DNA of 39,837 bases, from positions 1 to 39,837 of the forward strand of contig CAMCXK010000027.1 of assembly GCA_945883435.1 (NCBI GenBank), written 5' to 3'. Below are positions 8,722 through 39,837 of this stretch, one piece after another (positions within the stretch are counted from its first letter, which is position 1; the number at the start of each line of letters is the position of its first letter). The position numbers and the translations under genes are program-made. This DNA comes from Chthoniobacter flavus. GTDB lineage: Bacteria > Verrucomicrobiota > Verrucomicrobiia > Chthoniobacterales > Terrimicrobiaceae. The notes under the pieces are model-generated. The model was not told where the DNA came from. It worked only from the letters and a program-made list of their open reading frames with translations, and ran no database searches.

Positions 8722-8934
8722 TCAGTGGCTGAACGGCAGGCACACCTTGATGCGGTCCACGTCGGTTTCGTGAACCACGGCGGCCTTGGCCATGTGGCGC
8801 TTTTTGTTGGCGTTTTTACTCGCCATCAAGTGGCGGCGCGAGGCGTGGTTGCGAACAACCTTGCCGGTGCCGGTGATCTTGAAACGCTTGGCCACGGATT
8901 TGCGCGTTTTGCTTCTTGCGATGGGCTTTGGCAT
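8722..8934 (-). CDS. rpmI: 50S ribosomal protein L35
   Basis: A 70-residue basic protein of the large ribosomal subunit. MPKPIARSKTRKSVAKRFKI, then TGTGKVVRNHASRRHLM and KKRHMAKAAVV follow the L35 pattern (K-T-x-K-x-x-x-K-R-F-K-x-T-G-x-G-K ... H). The C terminus VHETDVDRIKVCLPFSH is normal. Its first 119 bases overlap, out of frame, the 3' end of the DNA-glycosylase gene. infC, usually upstream of rpmI, is not in this window. Confidence 0.97.
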   Translation of the reverse strand: MPKPIARSKTRKSVAKRFKITGTGKVVRNHASRRHLMASKNANKKRHMAKAAVVHETDVDRIKVCLPFSH

Positions 8935-9544
8935 GGGAAAAGGGTGGCAAAACTACACGCCGGTTTTGGTTTGGCAACTCTTTCTTTGAAAAAAATCCCA
9001 CAGGAACACTCAAGCAGGGATCACAGGGAACCACAAACCGCCACGGTTGCTCCACCGCTCGGGTGATACCGATCCGCGGGCCGGCTAGCGTTTCCACCGG
9101 GTTGCCTATGGCGAGGCCGCGGGCCAAATGTGGCGATCCGTGATGAGAACCATTGATCGCGAGGGCTTGGGTGAGTTTGCCGGGGCCCGAACAGAGTTGG
9201 CGGTCGCTGGCGTTTTTTCGCCGCTGGCGCATCGTTTCAAGTCCCCGCGTGGGGGAGAGGGCCCGCACCAGCACAAAGCCGTCCCGCGCCGCCCCCTTCA
9301 CCACAAAATTCAAGAGCCAGTGCACCCCGTAGTTCAAATACACGTAAGCCGTGCCGGGCTCGGCGGATTCAAGAAAGGCGCGTGCCGACGGACGGCGGAA
9401 GGTGTGGCAGGCTTCGTCACCCGAGGACAGATAGGCCTCGGTCTCGACAATGCGGCCGCCGCTGCCATTCCAGACGAGTTCCGCTCCGACAAGTTCGCGC
9501 GCGCAATCCACCGGGTCTCGGCTGAAAAAGTCCACAGTCATCAT
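8816..9544 (-). CDS. 3-methyladenine DNA glycosylase, Mpg/AAG family, with a 3' end running into rpmI
   Basis: Base-excision repair enzyme of the Mpg (AAG) family that removes alkylated purines. From ATG at 9544 (4-base ATGA overlap with the glycosyltransferase, 9541-9544) it reads MMTVDFFSRDPVDCARELVG, then RIVETEAYLSSGDEACHTFR, where the Glu of VETEAY is the catalytic base, then GTAYVYLNYGVHWLLNFV, LCSGPGKLTQALAI and GPRIGITRAVEQPWRFVV. The catalytic fold ends near residue 187 (base 8985); usual length is about 190-210. The frame continues for about 55 further basic, low-complexity residues and overlaps rpmI by 119 bases in another frame, so this tail is probably not a domain. The start at 9541 (single Met) is nearly equivalent. 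Confidence 0.88.
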   Translation of the reverse strand: MMTVDFFSRDPVDCARELVGAELVWNGSGGRIVETEAYLSSGDEACHTFRRPSARAFLESAEPGTAYVYLNYGVHWLLNFVVKGAARDGFVLVRALSPTRGLETMRQRRKNASDRQLCSGPGKLTQALAINGSHHGSPHLARGLAIGNPVETLAGPRIGITRAVEQPWRFVVPCDPCLSVPVGFFSKKELPNQNRRVVLPPFSHAKAHRKKQNAQIRGQAFQDHRHRQGCSQPRLAPPLDGE

Positions 9545-10266
9545 GGCCAGACAAGCCGACGGTGCCGAAAAAGATCGCCCGCCGCGCCGGGAAGCAGGGT
9601 GGCGTGGAGGCAAACCAACCGCCAGGTGTCGGCGAGCAGGCGGAAATGACTCACTCCGCCCTGCGCGGCGGTAAAATAGCGAACCGGACAAGCGAGATTC
9701 ACGCACGGCACTCCGCGACCTGGAAGACGTGCGGAAAGGAGGGTTTCCAACCCATAGCCTTCTCCACGCCGATCCTCTTCGAGCAACTCCAACACCGGGC
9801 GCACAGGATAAAGCCGCATGCCGAACAGCGAGTCCTCCGGGCCACTGCCCAGTGATTCGAGTGTGCTGAAAAAATTGCCGATGCGCCGGCCGAGCACCCG
9901 ATGCGCAGGCGCCGAGGCATCGAAGACCGGAACTCCGCAAACGAACGCCTCCGGTCGCTGGCGCCCGGCTTCCAAAAACGCGGGAATAAGAGACGCCGGA
10001 TGTTGACCGTCAGCGTCCATCGTCAGCGCATGGGTGAATCCCTCCGTCAGCGCATCGCGCAGACCGGCCTTCACCGCTCCACCCTTCCCCCGACGCTCCG
10101 TCAGCCGCGTCCAACGCACTTCCGGCAACCGCCCCGCCTCCGTCGAGCCGTCGTTTGATCCGTCATCCACCACCCGCACCGCGGAACAGTGCGCCAGCGC
10201 CCCCCGAATGGTTTCCTCAAGCCTTGGGCCGGCATTGTAAGAGGGAATCACGATGCACGCTCTCAT
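9541..10266 (-). CDS. Family 2 glycosyltransferase
   Basis: A 241-residue GT-A fold transferase. It begins MRACIVIPSYNAGPRLEETI; RVVDDGSNDGS near residue 32 is the nucleotide-binding motif and TMDADGQHP near 83 holds the metal-binding DxD-type aspartates. The sequence resembles dolichol-phosphate-mannose-synthase-like bacterial GT2 enzymes without the C-terminal membrane anchor. The start is set by ATGA overlap with the transporter stop (10263-10266); a longer in-frame reading to 10398 would run inside the transporter gene. It overlaps the DNA glycosylase by four bases. Substrate is not predictable. Confidence 0.85.
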   Translation of the reverse strand: MRACIVIPSYNAGPRLEETIRGALAHCSAVRVVDDGSNDGSTEAGRLPEVRWTRLTERRGKGGAVKAGLRDALTEGFTHALTMDADGQHPASLIPAFLEAGRQRPEAFVCGVPVFDASAPAHRVLGRRIGNFFSTLESLGSGPEDSLFGMRLYPVRPVLELLEEDRRGEGYGLETLLSARLPGRGVPCVNLACPVRYFTAAQGGVSHFRLLADTWRLVCLHATLLPGAAGDLFRHRRLVWP

Positions 10267-30713: not shown

Positions 30714-30786
30714 CCAACCTCTTTCTCCTTGCGGGAGGACATTGGCGGCTCTTCGCCCGCCGGTGGATTGAGGGTTGGTTTTTTTT
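30712..30786 (+). terminator. Intrinsic terminator after the orphan permease
   Basis: AACCAACC right after the stop codon (30712-30719) pairs with GGTTGGTT (30773-30780), enclosing a branch with GGCGG/CCGCC pairing (GGCGGCTCTTCGCCCGCC), and the second arm merges into a T8 run (30779-30786). A long, branched but convincing intrinsic terminator separating the permease from uvrA. Confidence 0.65.
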
Positions 30787-30843
30787 GCGGGAGGCGTATC
30801 ATCCCGCCCTCCCGCAGTCCGGCGGCCCGCCGCGACCGGGCCC

Positions 30844-33800
30844 ATGACCCAAACCCTACTTCCTGTGGAATCCATCAAGCTTCGTGGTGCGCGACAAAAC
30901 AACCTTCAAGGCATCGATCTCGAGTTGCCTCTGGGCAAGCTCATCGTCGTCACGGGGCCGAGCGGAAGTGGAAAATCGAGCCTGGCCTTCGACACCATCT
31001 ACGCGGAGGGCCAGCGGCGCTACGTCGAGACGTTCAGCCCCTACACCCGCCAGTTTCTCGAGCGCATGGACAAGCCGCTCGCGGATGCCATCGAAGGCAT
31101 TCCCCCGGCGATCGCGATTGAACAGGCGAACTCGGTGCGCACCACGCGCTCGACGGTCGGCACCATCACCGAGATCAACGACTATCTGAAGCTTCTCTTC
31201 CCGAGGGCTGCCAGTGCCGAGTGCCCGAAATGCCGCAAGCCGATCGTGCCCGGAACGCCCGGGGCGATTCTCCAGTCGATCGCGGCGGCCTTTCCGAAAA
31301 AGCCGTTTTTGGTGGCTTTCGAGGTCCCGGTGCCGAAGGACACGGCTCCCGCCGCGTTTTTTGAATTTCTCAACCAGCAGGGCTACCTCCGCGTCTGGCA
31401 CAAGGGGGCGGTCCATCGCACCGACGGGCCCCCCGCGCTCAAATCACTTCCGGAGCGGCTGGTGGTCGTTCAGGACCGGACCGGGGCGTCCTCGCCCGAT
31501 CGTGTCGCCGAGGCGGTCGAGAATGCCCTGCGCCTCGGCAACGATCGTCTTCTGGTGATCGATCCGGAGTCCGGCAAAACCCGCATTTTCACGACCGGTT
31601 GGCACTGCAGTTCCTGCGACGCGTCGATTCGGCCGCCCACCCCGGCCCTGTTCAGTTTCAACTCTCCGCTGGGAGCCTGTCCCGAGTGCAAGGGCTTCGG
31701 CCGGATCATCGGCATCGATATGCAGCGGGTCATTCCGGACCGCTCGCTTTCGATTTCCGAAGGCGTCATCAAACCCTTTCAAAGCGGCCAGTCGGCCGAG
31801 TGCCAGGACGACCTGATCCGCCACTGCCGCCAGCGCAAAATCGACCTCATGCGCTCGTTCGAGCGCCTGCCGCAGGCCGACCAGGATTTTGTCATCCACG
31901 GCGAACCCGGCCTCGATCCCAGGCAGGCCTGGGACTCGGGCCGCTGGTATGGAGTGGACGGATACTTCCACTGGTTGGAGAGCAAAACCTACAAGATGCA
32001 CATTCGAGTGCTGCTCTCCCGCTACCGGAGCTACCAGCCCTGCCCGGCCTGCAAGGGCGGGCGCTACCAGCCCGAGGCGCTGAATTTCCGCCTCGCGGGG
32101 TTGACCATCGCGGAGGTGGGTGCCATGCCGCTGAACCGCCTGCTCCCGATGCTCGAGGAGCTTTCGTTTCCGGAATCCGATGCGAGCGCCCGGCTGGTGC
32201 ACACCCAGGTCCGCTCGCGCGTGGGCTACCTTTGCCGCATCGGTCTCGGCTACCTCACGCTCGACCGGCCCACCCGCTCGCTCTCGGGCGGGGAGATCCA
32301 GCGGGTCAACCTCACAACGTGCCTCGGCGCCTCTCTCGTCAACACCCTCTTTGTGCTCGACGAGCCCAGCGTGGGATTGCATCCGCGCGATACCACGCGC
32401 CTCATCGAGATCCTGGAGGACCTCCGCGACAAGGGAAACACCCTTCTGGTTGTGGAGCACGAGGAGGCGCTCATTCGTGCGGCGGACGAGTTGGTCGATA
32501 TCGGCCCCGGCCGCGGCATTCACGGCGGCAAGCTGCTCTATTGCGGACCGGCGCGGGAGTTCCATGCCCCCGACTCGCTCACCGCGGACTACCTCGAGGG
32601 GAAAAAATGTATTCCGGTCCCTTCGAAACGCCGCAAACCGGAGGGCCATATCACCCTCAAGGGGGTCACCCACCACAACCTCAAAAACCTCAGCGCGAAA
32701 TTCCCGCTGGGCGTTCTTTGCGTGGTCACAGGCGTCTCGGGATCCGGGAAAACCTCCCTTGTGCGCGATGTTCTGCACAGGCAACTGATCGGCGAGGATC
32801 CCGCGGAGGACGAGGCGGCGGGATTCGTCAAATCGATTGCCGGCGACGAGGAGGTCGATGAGGTGGTCATGGTCGATCAGTCGCCGCTCGCCCGCACCCC
32901 GCGTTCGACACCCGCTGTTTATCTCGGGGTTTACGAGCACATCCGCGAGCTTTTCGGCTCCTCCCCCGCCGCTTTGGCCGCAGGGTTCACGCCCTCGAGC
33001 TTTTCGTTCAACACCGGCAACGGACGCTGCGACCGTTGCGCCGGCCTGGGATTCGAAAAGGTGGAAATGCAATTTCTCAGCGACTTGTTCCTCCGCTGCC
33101 CGGAGTGTGAGGGAACCCGGTTTCGCGCGCCGCTGCTCAAAATTCAAATCGCCGGCAAGTCGATCCACGATGTGCTGGAATTGACCGCGGCCGAGGCGGT
33201 GGAGTTTTTCAAACCGCTCGACAAGCAAGACCGCATCCTCGGTCCCCTCCGCCTGCTGGGCGAGGTGGGCCTTGAATACCTCCGGCTCGGCCAGCCGGTC
33301 AACGCGCTCTCGGGCGGGGAGTCGCAGCGCCTCAAGCTCGTGCACCACCTGATCCGCCAATCCCGTGAAAAAGCGCTCCTGATTTTCGACGAGCCGACCA
33401 CCGGTCTGCATTTCGACGATGTCGCCCTGCTCGTGAAGGTCTTCCACCGCCTTGTCGAGGAGGGGAACAGCGTGATCGTGATCGAGCACAACCTCGAGGT
33501 CGTCAAATGTGCCGACTGGGTCATCGACCTCGGCCCCGAGGGGGGATTGGAAGGCGGCCGGATCGTTGCGGCAGGCACTCCCGAGGCCATCGCGCGGGTT
33601 GCGGAATCCCACACCGGCCGCTATCTCGCGCCCCTTCTTGAAGATCGAAGCCCGGTTCTCCGCGAGGAGCCACGGCGACCCCGCCCGGCGACCCCACCCG
33701 CCCGCTCGATCCGCGTGCGCGGCGCCCGCGAGCACAATCTCAAAAACATCTCGGTCGACATCCCGAGGGACGGCATGGTCGTCGTCACCGGTCTCAGTGG

Positions 33801-36300
33801 CTCGGGCAAATCGACCCTGGCATTCGACATTCTTTTCAATGAAGGCCAGCGCCGCTTTCTCGACAGCATGTCGGCGTATGCGCGGCAATTCGTCGAACAG
33901 ATGGAAAAGCCCGACGTGGACTCGATCGAGGGACTTCCTCCCAGCGTGGCCATCGAACAACGCGTCACCCGCGGCGGTGGCAAATCGACCGTGGCCACGG
34001 TCACGGAAATCTACCATTTCCTGCGCCTGCTTTTCTCGAAACTCGGCACCCAGCATTGCCCGGATTGCCATGTGCCGGTTGCCCACCGCACCCCGACCGC
34101 CATCGCGGCGGAGGTCGCCGAACGCGCCGCCAGCGGTCCCGTGACGGTCTTTGCCAATCTGGTGCGCGGCCGCAAGGGCTTCCACACCGATGTGGCCAAA
34201 TCCGCCGCCCGCCAGGGAATCGAAACCCTGATCGTGGACGGCGGGGAGGTGGCCGTGGAGGGTTTCCAAAAACTCGAGCGCTTCAAAGAGCACACGATCG
34301 ATGCCCTCATCGGCGTTCTCGACAGTGCGGATGCCGCCCAAGCCGACGAACTCGTCCGCAAAGCCCTCCGCATTGGCAAGGGAACCGCCCGCATGGAGGA
34401 CGCCTCCGGTCGCTCGATCACCCTGAGCACCGCGATGAACTGCCCGCAGTGCAGCCGCGCCTTTGAGCCGCTCGATCCACGCCTTTTTTCGTTCAATTCG
34501 CCCCACGGCTGGTGCCCGCATTGCCGTGGTTTCGGCGAGGTCTGGAAGGGACTCGGCGAGGATGGCGAATTTGAGACCGCCATCGAGGCGGAACTCGACG
34601 AGGAGCGCCGCCACGAGGGTTTGGAGGACGAGGAGCCGCGCCCCTGCCCGGTTTGCCAGGCGACCCGTCTGAATGAAACAGCGCGGAATGTCCGCATCGG
34701 AAAACACTCGATTACCGATCTTACCCGCGCCCCGGCCTGCGAAGCGCTCCACCTGGCGGACGCATTCCGGTTCGAGGGCTCCTCCGCGGAGGTGGCCCGC
34801 GACATTTTGTCGGAGATCCGCCAACGTCTGGAATTCCTTGCCAAGGTGGGTCTCGACTACCTCTCGCTCGACCGCAGCGCCAAAACCCTCTCGGGCGGGG
34901 AATCCCAGCGCATCCGCCTGGCCGCGCAGCTCGGCTCGAATCTCCGCGGGGTCCTTTATGTGCTCGACGAGCCGACCATCGGCCTCCACCCGCGCGACAA
35001 CGAGCGCCTGCTCGACGCCCTTCAAACCCTCTCCCGCAAGGGCAACTCGCTGGTGGTCGTCGAGCACGACGAGGAAACCATGCGCCGCGCCGACCGCATC
35101 CTCGACCTCGGTCCGGGTGCGGGAATCCGTGGAGGCGAGGTCATCGCCTCGGGAACGCTTCAGGAAATCCTGGACAGCCCGGTCTCGCTGACCGGTCGCG
35201 CCCTGCGCGAGCCGATGCCGCATCCCCTGCGCGGCAAACGGCGCCCCAAGCCGTCCGAATGGCTCACCGTCAAAAAAGCCCGCCTTCACAACATCCACCA
35301 TGAAACCGTCAAAATTCCGCTGCAGCGCCTCACGGTTCTGACCGGCGTGTCGGGCTCGGGAAAAAGCACGCTGATCCGTGGCATCGTGGTGCCGTCGGTG
35401 CGCGAGGCCCTGACGCGGCGCCGCGCGCCCGCGCACTCGGATTTGCACGCGGGCATCGAGGGATTCGAATCCCTGGGGGCCGTTCTCGAAGTCGACCAGT
35501 CGCCGATCGGCAAGACCTCGCGCTCGACGCCAGCGACCTACGTGAAGGTCTTCGATGAAATCCGCAAGGTCTTCGCCGCCCTCCCCGCCGCCCGCATGCG
35601 CGGCTATACGGGAAGCCGCTTTTCCTTCAACAACGAGGGCGGACGCTGCGAAGCCTGCCTCGGTCAGGGCGTCATCAAACTCGAAATGAATTTTCTGCCG
35701 GCCTCCTACATGCCGTGCCAGGACTGCGGCGGCCGGCGATACAACGCCTCCACACTCGAAATCCTCTACAATGGAAAATCCATCGGCGATGTCATGGAGA
35801 TGACGATCGAGCAGGCGGCGGAGTTTTTCGCATCCCACCCGCGCATCCGCCGTCCGCTTTCGTTGCTTCAGGAAACCGGCCTCGGCTACTTGAAGCTTGG
35901 CCAGCCCAGCCCGACGCTGAGCGGCGGCGAGGCCCAGCGCATCAAGTTGGTGACGCAACTCGCCCGCCGGGCCGCTCCGGGCGAGGAGGAAATCCGCACC
36001 ACCCGGCGCGGAAAATCCACTTTTTATGTCCTGGAGGAGCCGACCATCGGCCTTCACGCCCATGACGTCGCCCAGTTGATCGGTGTGCTCCACCGCCTCG
36101 TGGACGAAGGCGGCACCGTGGTCGTGATCGAACACCACCTGGATGTCATCGCCGAGGCCGACCACATTCTCGACATCGGTCCCGAAGCGGGTGCCGAGGG
36201 CGGGAAAATCGTGGTTCAAGGGACCCCCGAGGCCGTGGCGCTGTGCCCGGCCAGCCGCACCGCGCCCTTCCTGGCAAAAATGCTCCCGCCGGCCCCTTGA
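30844..36300 (+). CDS. uvrA: Double-length excinuclease ABC subunit A (tandem UvrA)
   Basis: An 1,818-residue protein in which two whole UvrA units are fused, giving four ABC ATPase sites. Walker A loops: GPSGSGKSS (~38), GVSGSGKTS (~630), GLSGSGKST (~983), GVSGSGKST (~1501). Signature motifs: LSGGEIQR (~480), LSGGESQR (~822), LSGGESQR (~1349), LSGGEAQR (~1693). Each unit also has its zinc modules (CPKC/CSSC and [13 protein letters not shown] in the first; CPDC, CPQC and [13 protein letters not shown] in the second; CDRC...CPEC and CEAC...CQDC in the C halves). The last Walker B reads [10 protein letters not shown], Glu replacing the usual Asp. UvrA finds bulky DNA lesions in nucleotide excision repair. 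Single UvrA is about 940 residues; about 1,800-residue forms are known in Chlamydiae. Start Met at 30844 chosen over an upstream Met. Confidence 0.96.
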
Positions 36301-36316
36301 GTCGATACCCGGCGGT

Positions 36317-37372
36317 TTACTTCTTGCGGAAAAGGTAGTGGCTCACGAGCCACTCGTTGCCATCGCGGAAGCCCCACAATTCAGCGCAGGACAGGAAGAA
36401 AACCCGCCAATACGCCCGCCATTTGGCGGCCTGCTCCACCCCGTAGGTGCGCTCCAGAATCGGCGTGATGGCGGCTTCATTGGCATCCATGCGCTCGAGC
36501 CAGGCCTCGGAGGTGCGCTGGTAATGCGTGCCGCTCAGGCGCCAGTGGCGCAGGATCGACAGATCGTCCTGGAAATACAGCAACAGGTCATCGGACGGCA
36601 TCGTGCCGCCCTCGAAGAAATACCGCGTGATCCAGTCCGAGGGATCGCGTCCCTCGAAGTGGTAGGCGAATTCGCGATGGGTGAAGATGTGGACGAACAG
36701 CCGCCCGTCCGTCCGCAGCCACCGGGCCACCTTGGCCATGAGAAGGCGGTAGTTTTTCATGTGCTCGAACATCTCGACCGACACCACCCGGTCGAAGGCG
36801 TCATCGCCGGCCTCGAACACATTCATGTCGGCCGTGACGATCCGCACATTGCGCAACCCGCGCCGGGCGGCCTCGGACTCGATATGGAGTTTCTGCGTCG
36901 CGGAATTCGACACCCCGGTGATGCGCGAGCCGGGATAGGTCTCCGCCATCCAGAGGGTGAGACTGCCCCACCCGCAGCCGAGTTCGAGGACATCCTGGCC
37001 GTCCGCGAGTTCGGCCCGCCCGCATGTGAGCGCGAGCATCGCCTCCTCGGATTCCGCAAAGGTGGTGGACTCGCCGGGCCAGTAGCCGGAGCTGTATTTC
37101 ATGCGGGGTCCCAAGACATGCTGGAAAAACTCGGTCGGGACCTCGTAGTGCTGCTCGTTCGCCGCCGCGGTCTTCACCGCGATGGGGCTGCTCTTGAGCT
37201 CCTCCACAAACGCGGCCAAGGCCTCGCCCTGCGCCACCGCGTCGATTCTCGTCTCCTCCCGGATTTTCCGGCCAAGAAGATTGCGAATACCCAACCGGAT
37301 CACGGCATCGGGCAGAAGATTGCGGGCCAGCAGGTCGTCGAGCGGAATCATGCGGATGCGAGAAAACGCCAT
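36317..37372 (-). CDS. Cyclopropane-fatty-acid-synthase-like SAM methyltransferase
   Basis: A 351-residue class I methyltransferase. The SAM loop VLELGCGWGSLTLWMAETYP is near residue 127, preceded by the CFA-family N-terminal segment AANEQHYEVPTEFFQHVLGP then RMKYSSGYW near 70, and followed by ITGVSNSATQKLHIE, DRVVSVEMFEHMKNYRLLM near 190 and FVHIFTHREFAYHFEG near 225. This is the CFA/coclaurine-N-methyltransferase-like branch; substrate may be a lipid or an amine. I place the start at Met 37372 (GGGG upstream), after the DUF1295 stop; a further Met at 37351 is possible. It follows the DUF1295 gene, a pairing seen in other bacteria. Confidence 0.85.
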   Translation of the reverse strand: MAFSRIRMIPLDDLLARNLLPDAVIRLGIRNLLGRKIREETRIDAVAQGEALAAFVEELKSSPIAVKTAAANEQHYEVPTEFFQHVLGPRMKYSSGYWPGESTTFAESEEAMLALTCGRAELADGQDVLELGCGWGSLTLWMAETYPGSRITGVSNSATQKLHIESEAARRGLRNVRIVTADMNVFEAGDDAFDRVVSVEMFEHMKNYRLLMAKVARWLRTDGRLFVHIFTHREFAYHFEGRDPSDWITRYFFEGGTMPSDDLLLYFQDDLSILRHWRLSGTHYQRTSEAWLERMDANEAAITPILERTYGVEQAAKWRAYWRVFFLSCAELWGFRDGNEWLVSHYLFRKK

Positions 37373-37391
37373 GCAAGCCCCGGCGGCGAGT

Positions 37392-38171
37392 TCAACTTTT
37401 CGGAAACCACGGCACAAACGCACTGGTCCGCCGGCGGTAGTCGAGGTAAGCCTCGCCGCGCGTGGCCACCAGCCGCGCCTCGGCGGGAGGAATCCCCGTC
37501 ACCCGCACCAGCAAAAAAAGCATCAGCAACGGGCTCAGCAGCCCCGCCCAGCCCCACGGCGAGCCGATGGCAAAGACCGCATAGGAAATCCACACCACCC
37601 ATTCGAAAAAATAATTCGGATGCCGCGAGTAGCGCCACAATCCCAGATCGCACACCCGGCCCTTCGCCCGCGATTTGAAGTAAGCCAGCTGTTGATCGGC
37701 GATCGCCTCCCCCCCGATCCCGGTCAGCCACAGAAGCACCCCCGCGATTTCCAGCACCCCCACCCCCGGCAAGGGATTCGCACAGGCGACCGCCACCGGC
37801 AGGCTCAAAATCCCGATCAGCAAGCCCTGAAGAAGAAAAAATCCCAGAAACATCGTCCACGTCCGTCTGGGAAACCTCTCCCGGAGGGCCTGGTAGCGCG
37901 GATCTTCGACCGGATGGTGCCCCATCACCCTCCGGTGCAAGTGCAGGCCCAGTCGCAGGCTCCAAGCACAAACCATCGCCGCGATCAGCCCATTGCGCAC
38001 CGCATGCCCGCTGCCGAACACCCCGTAAAAAACCGCCAGCGGCGCGAATCCGAAGGCCCACCACACATCCACGATCCCCGCATTGTTCATTCGCCGGGCA
38101 AAAAACCACACACCCGCCATCATCACCATGGCACCCCCACACCCCACGATCACAAGCGGCAGCGGATTCAT
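37392..38171 (-). CDS. DUF1295 membrane protein (steroid-reductase/isoprenylcysteine methyltransferase-like)
   Basis: A 259-residue membrane protein with about six hydrophobic helices. It begins MNPLPLVIVGCGGAMVMMAG; a GGGAGG lies a suitable distance before the ATG. The C-terminal family motif CDLGLWRYSRHPNYFFEWVV is near residue 195, with the R-H-P-N-Y cofactor-site signature, and GEAYLDYRRRTSAFVPWFPK at the end is typical. Related proteins reduce or methylate lipid substrates. Gene order DUF1295-CFA-like suggests the two modify the same membrane lipid, as inference. Several Met codons upstream in frame lie in non-coding-looking sequence. Confidence 0.87.
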   Translation of the reverse strand: MNPLPLVIVGCGGAMVMMAGVWFFARRMNNAGIVDVWWAFGFAPLAVFYGVFGSGHAVRNGLIAAMVCAWSLRLGLHLHRRVMGHHPVEDPRYQALRERFPRRTWTMFLGFFLLQGLLIGILSLPVAVACANPLPGVGVLEIAGVLLWLTGIGGEAIADQQLAYFKSRAKGRVCDLGLWRYSRHPNYFFEWVVWISYAVFAIGSPWGWAGLLSPLLMLFLLVRVTGIPPAEARLVATRGEAYLDYRRRTSAFVPWFPKS

Positions 38172-38395
38172 GCCTTTACACCTCCCCGCAACACGCCTCC
38201 CCGGCAATCGCAAAATTTGCCCCTGTCGCTCGGCGCCCCCCCTGTAGCAGAATTCGAAACGAATTTCGAGGGCGTGCGATAAGCTTTGCCCGGCGATGCC
38301 TGCGAAGTGCCTCGGCGGCCAACAAAAGTTTTCCATGCCGTTGCGACGGGGTTTCTTTCGGCGTTGTGGGGACATCGTCCGCCCGTCGAAACTTT

Positions 38396-38414
38396 TTCAA
38401 AGTTCCGCTACGCG
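38396..38414. repeat. Direct repeat, left copy
   Basis: TTCAAAGTTCCGCTACGCG here and TTCAAAGTTCCGCCGCGCG at 38501-38519 match at 17 of 19 positions, 105 bases apart, flanking the pyrimidine-rich repeat. The arrangement could mark the edges of an inserted intergenic element. Confidence 0.6.
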
Positions 38415-38475
38415 TGCGAGCGAGCGAGTCAAAGGACACAATAAACCTCTCCTGCTTATCCTGCTCCTCCTGTCT

Positions 38476-38492
38476 TCCTGTCTAAAAATCCG
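38476..38492. repeat. Copy 2 of the dispersed intergenic repeat
   Basis: Identical for 17 bases to 26014-26030 (TCCTGTCTAAAAATCCG) and then near-identical. It is preceded by several TCCTG-type units (TCCTGCTTATCCTGCTCC), a style of degenerate pyrimidine repeat I have seen associated with this bacterial group; that association is from memory. Confidence 0.75.
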
Positions 38493-38500
38493 GTTTCGGA

Positions 38501-38519
38501 TTCAAAGTTCCGCCGCGCG
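38501..38519. repeat. Direct repeat, right copy
   Basis: Second copy of TTCAAAGTTCCGC(CG)CGCG; see 38396-38414. Confidence 0.6.
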
Positions 38520-38525
38520 CGGGAT

Positions 38526-38708
38526 TTAATATCCGGTGTGGTAGCCGCTCAGGGATTTTTCGGCTGGCGGATGTTGGCCATAGCCGCCCGGAATGGAATC
38601 CTCGTTGAGCTTGTAGCTCTTCTCCCCGCGGGCGCGGGCGAGTTCCCGGGTGAGCAGGAACCGGGTATAGTTCGAGAGACTGCCGAAGCCCATGCGCTCG
38701 GCCAATTC
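38526..38708 (-). pseudogene. 3' remnant of a small DNA-binding-like gene
   Basis: On the minus strand a 60-codon open stretch reads ELAERMGFGSLSNYTRFLLT, then RELARARGEKSYKLNEDSIP, and ends SGYHTGY. The E-L-A-x-x-M-G-F-x-S-x-S-x-Y-x-R-x-L-L segment looks like the helix-helix end of ribbon-helix-helix (CopG/MetJ-type) or related small regulators, but it is cut directly after an in-frame stop at 38709-38711 and has no plausible start or N-terminal strand. A Met at 38693 could still make a 55-residue product. I read it as a truncated gene; the family call is tentative. Confidence 0.4.
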
Positions 38709-38928
38709 TCACGCGTCCCGCGTCGATTCCGGCGACAGCGAAACACTCGCGCACTATGTCGCCATATACCGCATGGTCCTCGTGCGAGACGGACACATCG
38801 TCGCCTCGCGCCAACTCCGCCGCAGCGACAAGCAAAGCCCGTTTTATCTCGGAGGCCACCCCCAACCGATTGTCCAAAAACTCCGGGAACAAGCCGCATG
38901 GCAGATTTTCGAATCGCTCCACCCGTAA
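38692..38928 (+). pseudogene. Probable C-terminal fragment of an unrecognised gene
   Basis: A 78-codon plus-strand frame reading, from about codon 17, SETLAHYVAIYRMVLVRDGH, then a segment with SDKQSPFYLGGHPQPIVQKL and ending AWQIFESLHP. The second half looks protein-like, while the first ~15 codons overlap the minus-strand remnant. I suspect the 3' end of a gene joined to that remnant near 38700-38710, but a complete short gene starting at the Met of 38692 or 38773 cannot be excluded. No family recognised. Confidence 0.35.
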
Positions 38929-38996: not shown

Positions 38997-39837
38997 ATGA
39001 GAAGAAATCACCACTCCTTTTTAGCCCTCGCATTTTTAGTGGCTCAAGTCCTTTTCAACTCGGCTTACGACTCCATGGCCCAAACCGCAACATCTCGAGT
39101 TTTTGAAATTTACTGTTCACCGAGTCTGCCAAAGGAGACATCAGACAATATTGTAAGGCTGGTTAAAGAATTCATCGCCGGCAACAATGAGCCAAATATG
39201 AAAGTTGGTGATGTTCTGAAAATTTTCAATGGCGAGACGCTAATTCCCATTGGTAGTGAAATTAAAATTCCGAAAAAAGATCTGGTTTCCACCAGTTCCC
39301 GCTATAGAGAACAGAAACTTCGCAACAACGCAAGATCTGTCAATGACTTCATAAAATTCCTTCAGGAATCCAAACCGGAAACAAAGCGTAGTCCAATAAA
39401 TCTTGCAAAAATTCTCTCCACGCGCCAAACCCAACCCAACACCCGCATCCTTATCATTGGATCGCCGATTTACCACGACGATATCGAATCCCACGACATG
39501 AGGCGCGGATGGTTGAGCGATGGTTACTTCAACCAACCTCCTCAAATCACCATCTTCAGCGTGCAAGGAAAGCAGGCCAACTTGCAAAATGCCCGAATCT
39601 CGATTGCCACAGTGGGGGCCCAATGGGGAGCGGGAGCGGAAGACAACCATCGGCGCGGGGTGGAGCGATTCTGGGCCATCTTCACCCAAGAAAACGGGGG
39701 AACGCTCGTGTATTTTGATCAGGCTGTTGAGGGAGGACTCAAATCTCTGATGGCTGAAAATCCTGCCGAGGTGGCCATCGTGCCCCCTCGCGACAAAGAG
39801 GACAAGAAATTGGCGATCTACACTGGGAAAATCGAAA
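38997..39837 (+). CDS. Secreted protein of unknown function, AT-richer, 3' end outside the window
   Basis: From ATG 38997 the plus strand is open for 280 codons to the window edge. The start MRRNHHSFLALAFLVAQVLF then NSAYDSMAQ is a signal peptide cut near residue 29. The body has a possible LysM-like or small domain (MKVGDVLKIFNGETLIPIGS then EIKIPKK, about residues 75-100), then a Rossmann/vWA-like core opening RILIIGSPIYHDDIESHDMR near residue 150 and containing ISIATVGAQWGAGAED and the repeated-style GGTLVYFDQAVEGGLKSLM. It is clearly richer in A/T and in codons such as ATT, AAA and AAT than the rest of the window, above all in its first 400 bases, which suggests acquisition from elsewhere. 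Family not recognised; vWA-like is a guess. Confidence 0.65.
   Translation, partial: MRRNHHSFLALAFLVAQVLFNSAYDSMAQTATSRVFEIYCSPSLPKETSDNIVRLVKEFIAGNNEPNMKVGDVLKIFNGETLIPIGSEIKIPKKDLVSTSSRYREQKLRNNARSVNDFIKFLQESKPETKRSPINLAKILSTRQTQPNTRILIIGSPIYHDDIESHDMRRGWLSDGYFNQPPQITIFSVQGKQANLQNARISIATVGAQWGAGAEDNHRRGVERFWAIFTQENGGTLVYFDQAVEGGLKSLMAENPAEVAIVPPRDKEDKKLAIYTGKIE

Follow-up and report, generated by a model that had tools for sequence, protein, structure and literature searches.

The MoxR-vWA ternary conflict systems pair a vWA-type protein with another conserved protein, and some of their vWA domains also lack the metal-site aspartates (PMC7159879). The family described here likewise pairs a vWA-type protein with a conserved protein and has no metal site; it differs in that its vWA-like protein is predicted to be exported and in having a four-TM coiled-coil protein as the conserved partner. 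No MoxR-type AAA+ ATPase was detected among the subset of neighbours scanned in the order-level relatives L074/L123 and L138. The BlaI-BlaR1 operons offer a further comparison, as nine verrucomicrobial relatives lie behind BlaI and/or BlaR1; Pfam, however, identifies neither member of the pair as a beta-lactamase or penicillin-binding protein, and the copy studied here has no BlaI or BlaR1 in view. In VirD4/TraG mobilisation modules (plasmid pPla86_1, Nitrosomonas, Cohaesibacter) the same pair adjoins the coupling protein, whereas the genome studied here contains no PF02534 coupling protein. Within the vWA superfamily at large, the likeness lies in the predicted fold of homologue L074 (VIA-align Z up to 12.4), while the family departs from it in the absence of DxSxS (12 members) and of a Pfam vWA match, and in conserved motifs of its own.

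The window, that is, the whole stretch of DNA analysed, is the entire contig C27 (39837 bases) of a genome of 2.84 Mb in 126 contigs. An ATG-started frame of 280 codons (280 aa) opens at 38997 on the forward strand and reaches 39836 without a stop; since the contig is exactly 39837 bases long, the gene is cut by its end. The following features were assigned to it:

38997..39836, forward strand: truncated gene of an exported vWA-like family without a name (open frame; homology to 13 loci found by pattern; 33% identity over 266 aa to L138:170-1558)
38997..39083, forward strand: probable signal peptide, residues 1-29 (by eye, with a basic start and hydrophobic core; relatives in alignment A1 have similar leaders)
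39096..39770, forward strand: predicted vWA-like domain, about residues 34-258 (alignment to homologue L074, whose well-predicted model matches vWA folds)
39453..39482, forward strand: predicted core strand with the family motif IIGSPIYHDD, residues 153-162 (alignment A1; beta strand in the L074 model)
39648..39674, forward strand: family motif HRRGVERFW, residues 218-226 (alignment A1; H, R, R, F and W invariant in 12/12; basis of the search pattern)

That this frame is a gene is established by in-frame homology, at 33% identity across 266 aa, with a gene from the same order, and a stop-free run of 280 codons at its composition has a probability of about 6e-7. The N-terminal leader begins MRRNHHSFLALAFLVAQVLF. 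The product is probably exported, as suggested by the leader recognised by eye and by the similar leaders of relatives. The sequence-only reading had called it secreted. A hydropathy threshold applied to the window protein did not flag the leader. A search of the last 938 bases of the contig against its own genome found no second place.

The same reading had placed a sharp change of codon use and base composition at about 39000. The change itself was confirmed: the GC content of the frame is 0.477 vs 0.627 +/- 0.022 (minimum 0.55) in 3,726 segments of 840 bases from positions 1-38100, its GC3 is 0.525 vs 0.61-0.84 in 15 further frames, and for codon adaptation it has the lowest value among the 16 frames measured (0.508), though one other frame, 8816-9940, possibly not a gene, comes close at 0.514. 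A single sharp step at 39000 was not found: the GC drop begins in the intergenic stretch from 38172, and within the frame itself GC is uneven (0.407 in the first half, 0.548 in the second). The DNA preceding the gene carries the following features:

36317..37423, reverse strand: cyclopropane-fatty-acid-synthase-like flanking core gene (PF02353, E 3e-42)
37392..38171, reverse strand: DUF1295 flanking core gene (PF06966, E 4.9e-63; in 14/16 genus genomes)
38240..38743, no strand assigned: duplicated stretch whose counterpart in the same genome, C24:7203-7702 (L071), is 92% identical; it ends at the likely boundary of the accessory region
38549..38743, reverse strand: remnant of a small gene, ribbon-helix-helix-like by eye (a 90-codon copy is intact on C24, L071:7485-7757)
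38740..38928, forward strand: C-terminal remnant of a second gene (YRMVLVRDGHIVASRQLRRSD), frame to stop

The two flanking core genes are adjacent in 11/11 congener regions examined, and the DNA upstream of them differs between congeners. The gene fragments and repeats that had been described ahead of the window gene are real, with 38240-38743 duplicated at 92% identity on C24 and part of it, at most some 60 bases, present at 11 further places. The order at the boundary is the small gene cut at 38743, the gene tail 38740-38928 and the window gene. Since the small gene, whole on C24, is cut at 38743 in the window, the left edge of the accessory region likely lies nearer 38743 than 39000. Neither remnant has a Pfam match; no further copy of the second, which we take to be perhaps RadC/JAB-like, was present among the loci compared.

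An intergenic repeat of about 30-63 bases (around 'acaataaacctctcctgcttatcctgctcctcctgtcttcctgtc') occupies window positions 38440-38506 and recurs with 78-93% identity at 11 further places, in contigs C8, C15, C24, C25, C27, C105, C112 and C114, as a dispersed repeat family. No Rfam families or tRNAs were found in the window. Farther to the left is a single frame of 1841 codons (30775-36300), which by eye presumably resembles a doubled UvrA-type excinuclease ATPase subunit.

The motif HRRGVERFW...GG of the window protein resembles that of a secreted family, and it was written as a degenerate DNA pattern for searching. The pattern matched once in the window and at 13 loci/contigs of the genome collection (84,980 species) in three phyla, namely eight Verrucomicrobiota, three Nitrosomonas, one Cohaesibacter and one Pirellulaceae record. 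All 13 carry a frame that has the family motifs and can be aligned with the window protein (within this small set, blastp E 2e-37 to 2e-7). Alignment A1 of 12 sequences, the window protein included, has 12 invariant columns, and the window protein keeps the family-invariant residues G155, D175, H218, R219, R224, F225, W226, G234 and G235. The conserved motifs are GSPxYxD, SDG, HRxxVxRFW and GG, and neither Pfam nor NCBIfam has a family for the members. The window gene is a divergent new member of a family without a name. A midpoint-rooted tree, with large distances and low support at several nodes, pairs its product with L074; G456 is not in the tree.

The family profile matches 3/213 genomes of the window's order: the window's own genome, a genome with coordinates identical to those of L074, which thus belongs to this order, and G456, whose gene (L138:170-1558) is that with 33% identity mentioned above. 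None of the 15 other genomes of the genus has a family gene, whether searched with the single sequence or with the profile. In the class, 12/384 genomes match, including the window's own and G683, with the same coordinates as G436; among these matches G606 (E 6e-4) was taken as chance, G695 is a 57-codon edge piece and G687 a broken piece. Across 387 genomes of the phylum the profile found only the window's own genome. As about four candidates at most were scored per genome in the phylum and class searches, their counts are lower bounds. The window gene is accessory, as had been proposed: it is present in 0/15 congeners and 3/213 genomes of the order, vs 14/16 genus genomes for the flanking DUF1295 gene. 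This is the reverse of a gene conserved and syntenic across the phylum with the same composition.

Used alone, the window protein had no match in Pfam, NCBIfam, PHROGs or PDB sequences, none by tblastn in plasmids and phages, and no relative among genome and viral contigs in the related-locus search. Its 33 matches besides its own in the 387 phylum genomes (E up to 1) were taken as chance after seven were re-examined (L004-L008, L014 and L016) and found to be short, in some cases with stops, or to give no alignment. Viral contigs had no match to the DNA pattern and no relative in a later search either. The family profile found nothing in PDB sequences (best E 0.92). The only plasmid matches were pPla86_1, a near copy in Pla133 and pRGUI01 of Rhodovulum; plasmid searches with another family member and with one partner protein found none, nor did those of phages. 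The gene pair has no name in any of the family libraries searched, and the titles and abstract openings of the literature searched contain no description of the family.

The window protein modelled alone folds poorly (mean pLDDT 35.5), so its fold was inferred from homologue L074. With a 14-sequence alignment, the latter reaches a pLDDT of mostly 80-97 over residues 30-250; residues 257-362 form a disordered linker, and the C-terminal part is rich in beta structure. VIA-align of about residues 26-258 of the model gave Z from 12.4 to 10.2, with listed rows that, judged by their titles, are vWA-type proteins, and the top Foldseek match was a vWA-bearing chain (E 1.3e-5); BFVD gave one match without a name (E 2e-4). 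The first domain of the family is thus predicted to be vWA-like, with alternating strands and helices. The "unfamiliar core" of the sequence-only reading is indeed without a match in sequence libraries, but these structural neighbours suggest that it is a vWA-like domain, in which IIGSPIYHDD is modelled as one core strand with a family motif and GGTLVYF as another strand. The DxSxS motif at the end of strand 1 is present in 0/12 members, the site reading mostly SPxL, and the Pfam vWA models match 0/12 members (E up to 1).

In relatives the protein continues into a C-terminal all-beta domain, which the window does not show because the contig ends before it; no matching piece was found in the window's own genome (12/12 candidates scored). 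The Foldseek rows also include clostridial alpha-toxin and lipase; these may reflect the beta domain, possibly a C2/PLAT-like sandwich, a reading to which we attach no claim. In the homologue of a planctomycete plasmid (L086:11989-13437), the beta domain is replaced by a second part with DCSGS, by eye like a canonical vWA metal site.

The conserved neighbour of the family gene codes for a membrane protein 240-430 aa long, in which about four hydrophobic helices are flanked on both sides by charged ends that resemble coiled coils. Most of these partner proteins are detectably related to one another. The partner profile finds one within about 300 bases of 13/14 intact copies in 12 genomes, eight of these partners being in the profile and five outside it, and also beside 9/12 further copies examined that are absent from both profiles. 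The other three of these 12 have no partner by profile: G704:C137, where the contig ends beside the gene, the broken G687, and G704:C145, which has downstream a TM-bearing frame of 347 codons without a profile match. In pRGUI01 of Rhodovulum, the gene that precedes the family gene matches the partner weakly (14.4 bits). In Pirellulaceae L077 the vWA domain shares a single frame with a coil-TM-coil region that precedes it, an additional TM lying between the two; the frame's match to the partner profile is weak (4.7 bits), and the fusion agrees with coils in the cytoplasm and a vWA domain in the periplasm. In the order relatives the partner lies directly downstream of the family gene (L074:6528-7550 and L138:1611-2609, 25% mutual identity) and would therefore be expected just past the end of the window's contig, which explains why the window copy has no visible partner. 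There is none upstream of the gene, and the window's own genome gave only a chance-level match (C18, E 0.001). The suggestion that the gene may belong to a larger acquired system continuing outside the window thus holds in part: the partner directly after the gene in two order relatives makes a continuing system likely. Recent acquisition, or a place on a mobile element, is at most a conjecture; the genome has no PF02534 coupling protein.

The pair is found in several genomic contexts. BlaI and/or BlaR1 are encoded upstream in nine verrucomicrobial loci (L083, L126, L128, L129, L130, L154, L155, L157 and L158), in the order BlaI/BlaR1, four-TM partner, vWA-like exported protein. Coupling proteins are encoded next door in L075, L080/L132 and L081/L125 and 1.3 kb away in G444 (four proteobacterial loci), and the planctomycete plasmid pPla86_1 has traG next door, with a MOBP relaxase and MobC. 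A TrwC-like gene is next in four verrucomicrobial loci (L084/L120, L127, L159 and L161), with an integrase nearby in three, and G442 carries a MobF-type relaxase (PF08751) and a coupling protein elsewhere on the same contig. On G442:C68 (L119-L122, 10000-85000) there are two copies of the MobF-type relaxase and coupling protein, oppositely oriented and separated by some 60 kb, with two intact and one broken family copy between them. In the window's order, the L138 pair adjoins a WD40-repeat protein and has in its vicinity a DUF4062 protein whose NACHT-type matches are weak; the L123 pair lies beside a PIN protein and an FRG-domain protein matching PADLOC PDC-S15. Because the family gene elsewhere nearly always has the membrane-protein gene as its companion and stands in stress-sensor operons or DNA-transfer modules, the window gene marks where an accessory region begins.

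We give an even chance to the reading in which the window gene codes for the exported, periplasmic half of a two-protein envelope complex. The partner would be an inner-membrane protein whose coils lie on the cytoplasmic side, while the vWA protein would dock on it from the periplasm; the vWA face, free of a metal site, would be the contact for a protein partner, and the beta domain would bind an envelope ligand. Such a complex could be a general envelope-attachment unit, responding to cell-wall stress under BlaI-BlaR1, linking the coupling protein or relaxase to the envelope in mobilisation modules, and standing among accessory, defence-type genes in the window's order. The missing 3' end and the partner gene would then lie directly past the contig end. 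More tentatively, and rather doubtfully at its full breadth, the pair may be an undescribed envelope module used by chromosomal BlaI-BlaR1 operons and DNA-transfer modules of Verrucomicrobiota, Planctomycetota and Pseudomonadota and taken into defence-type islands in the window's order, a portable device anchoring machines of the cytoplasm to the wall or the outer membrane. The three very different contexts may also mean three different uses.

A narrower role in mobilisation, with the window gene belonging to a module for mobilisation or conjugation on an integrated element, where the pair would help DNA to leave the donor cell, is suggested by the VirD4/TraG coupling protein next or close to the pair in Nitrosomonas and Cohaesibacter, by traG with the MOBP relaxase and MobC on pPla86_1, and by the TrwC-like genes with an integrase nearby in Verrucomicrobia. 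It is nevertheless an unlikely account of the window: a PF02534 match is absent from this genome (0 matches, 3/3 candidates scored), the tested neighbours of the same-order loci L074 and L138 include no relaxase or coupling protein, and nine relatives stand instead in BlaI-BlaR1 operons. The neighbours that do occur in the order, the DUF4062 and WD40-repeat proteins at L138 and the FRG-domain (PDC-S15) and PIN proteins at L123, point to a system that defends against, or excludes, phages or incoming DNA. This too is improbable, given that defence genes cluster in any accessory region, that only two such loci are known, and that the pair has no PADLOC match save a weak methyltransferase match of the window protein (E 0.009). 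Neither role excludes the general statement of an envelope complex. A chimeric contig end, or a decaying locus in which the gene stands outside any working system, would account for a gene on the last 841 bases of a contig in a fragmented assembly, behind two broken genes and with a GC content unlike that of the contig; the intact frame of 280 codons, in which every family-invariant residue is kept, and the occurrence of the nearest relatives in the same order make it very unlikely.

The window copy itself adds one truncated, divergent member only, and the interest lies in the family and its pairing. If the envelope-complex reading is true, wall-stress regulation and DNA mobilisation would share a gene pair without a name in the libraries searched, and one open to direct test. 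Research on conjugation would gain a possible accessory factor to set next to the coupling protein, and some of the "hypothetical proteins" encoded by environmental plasmids would be accounted for.
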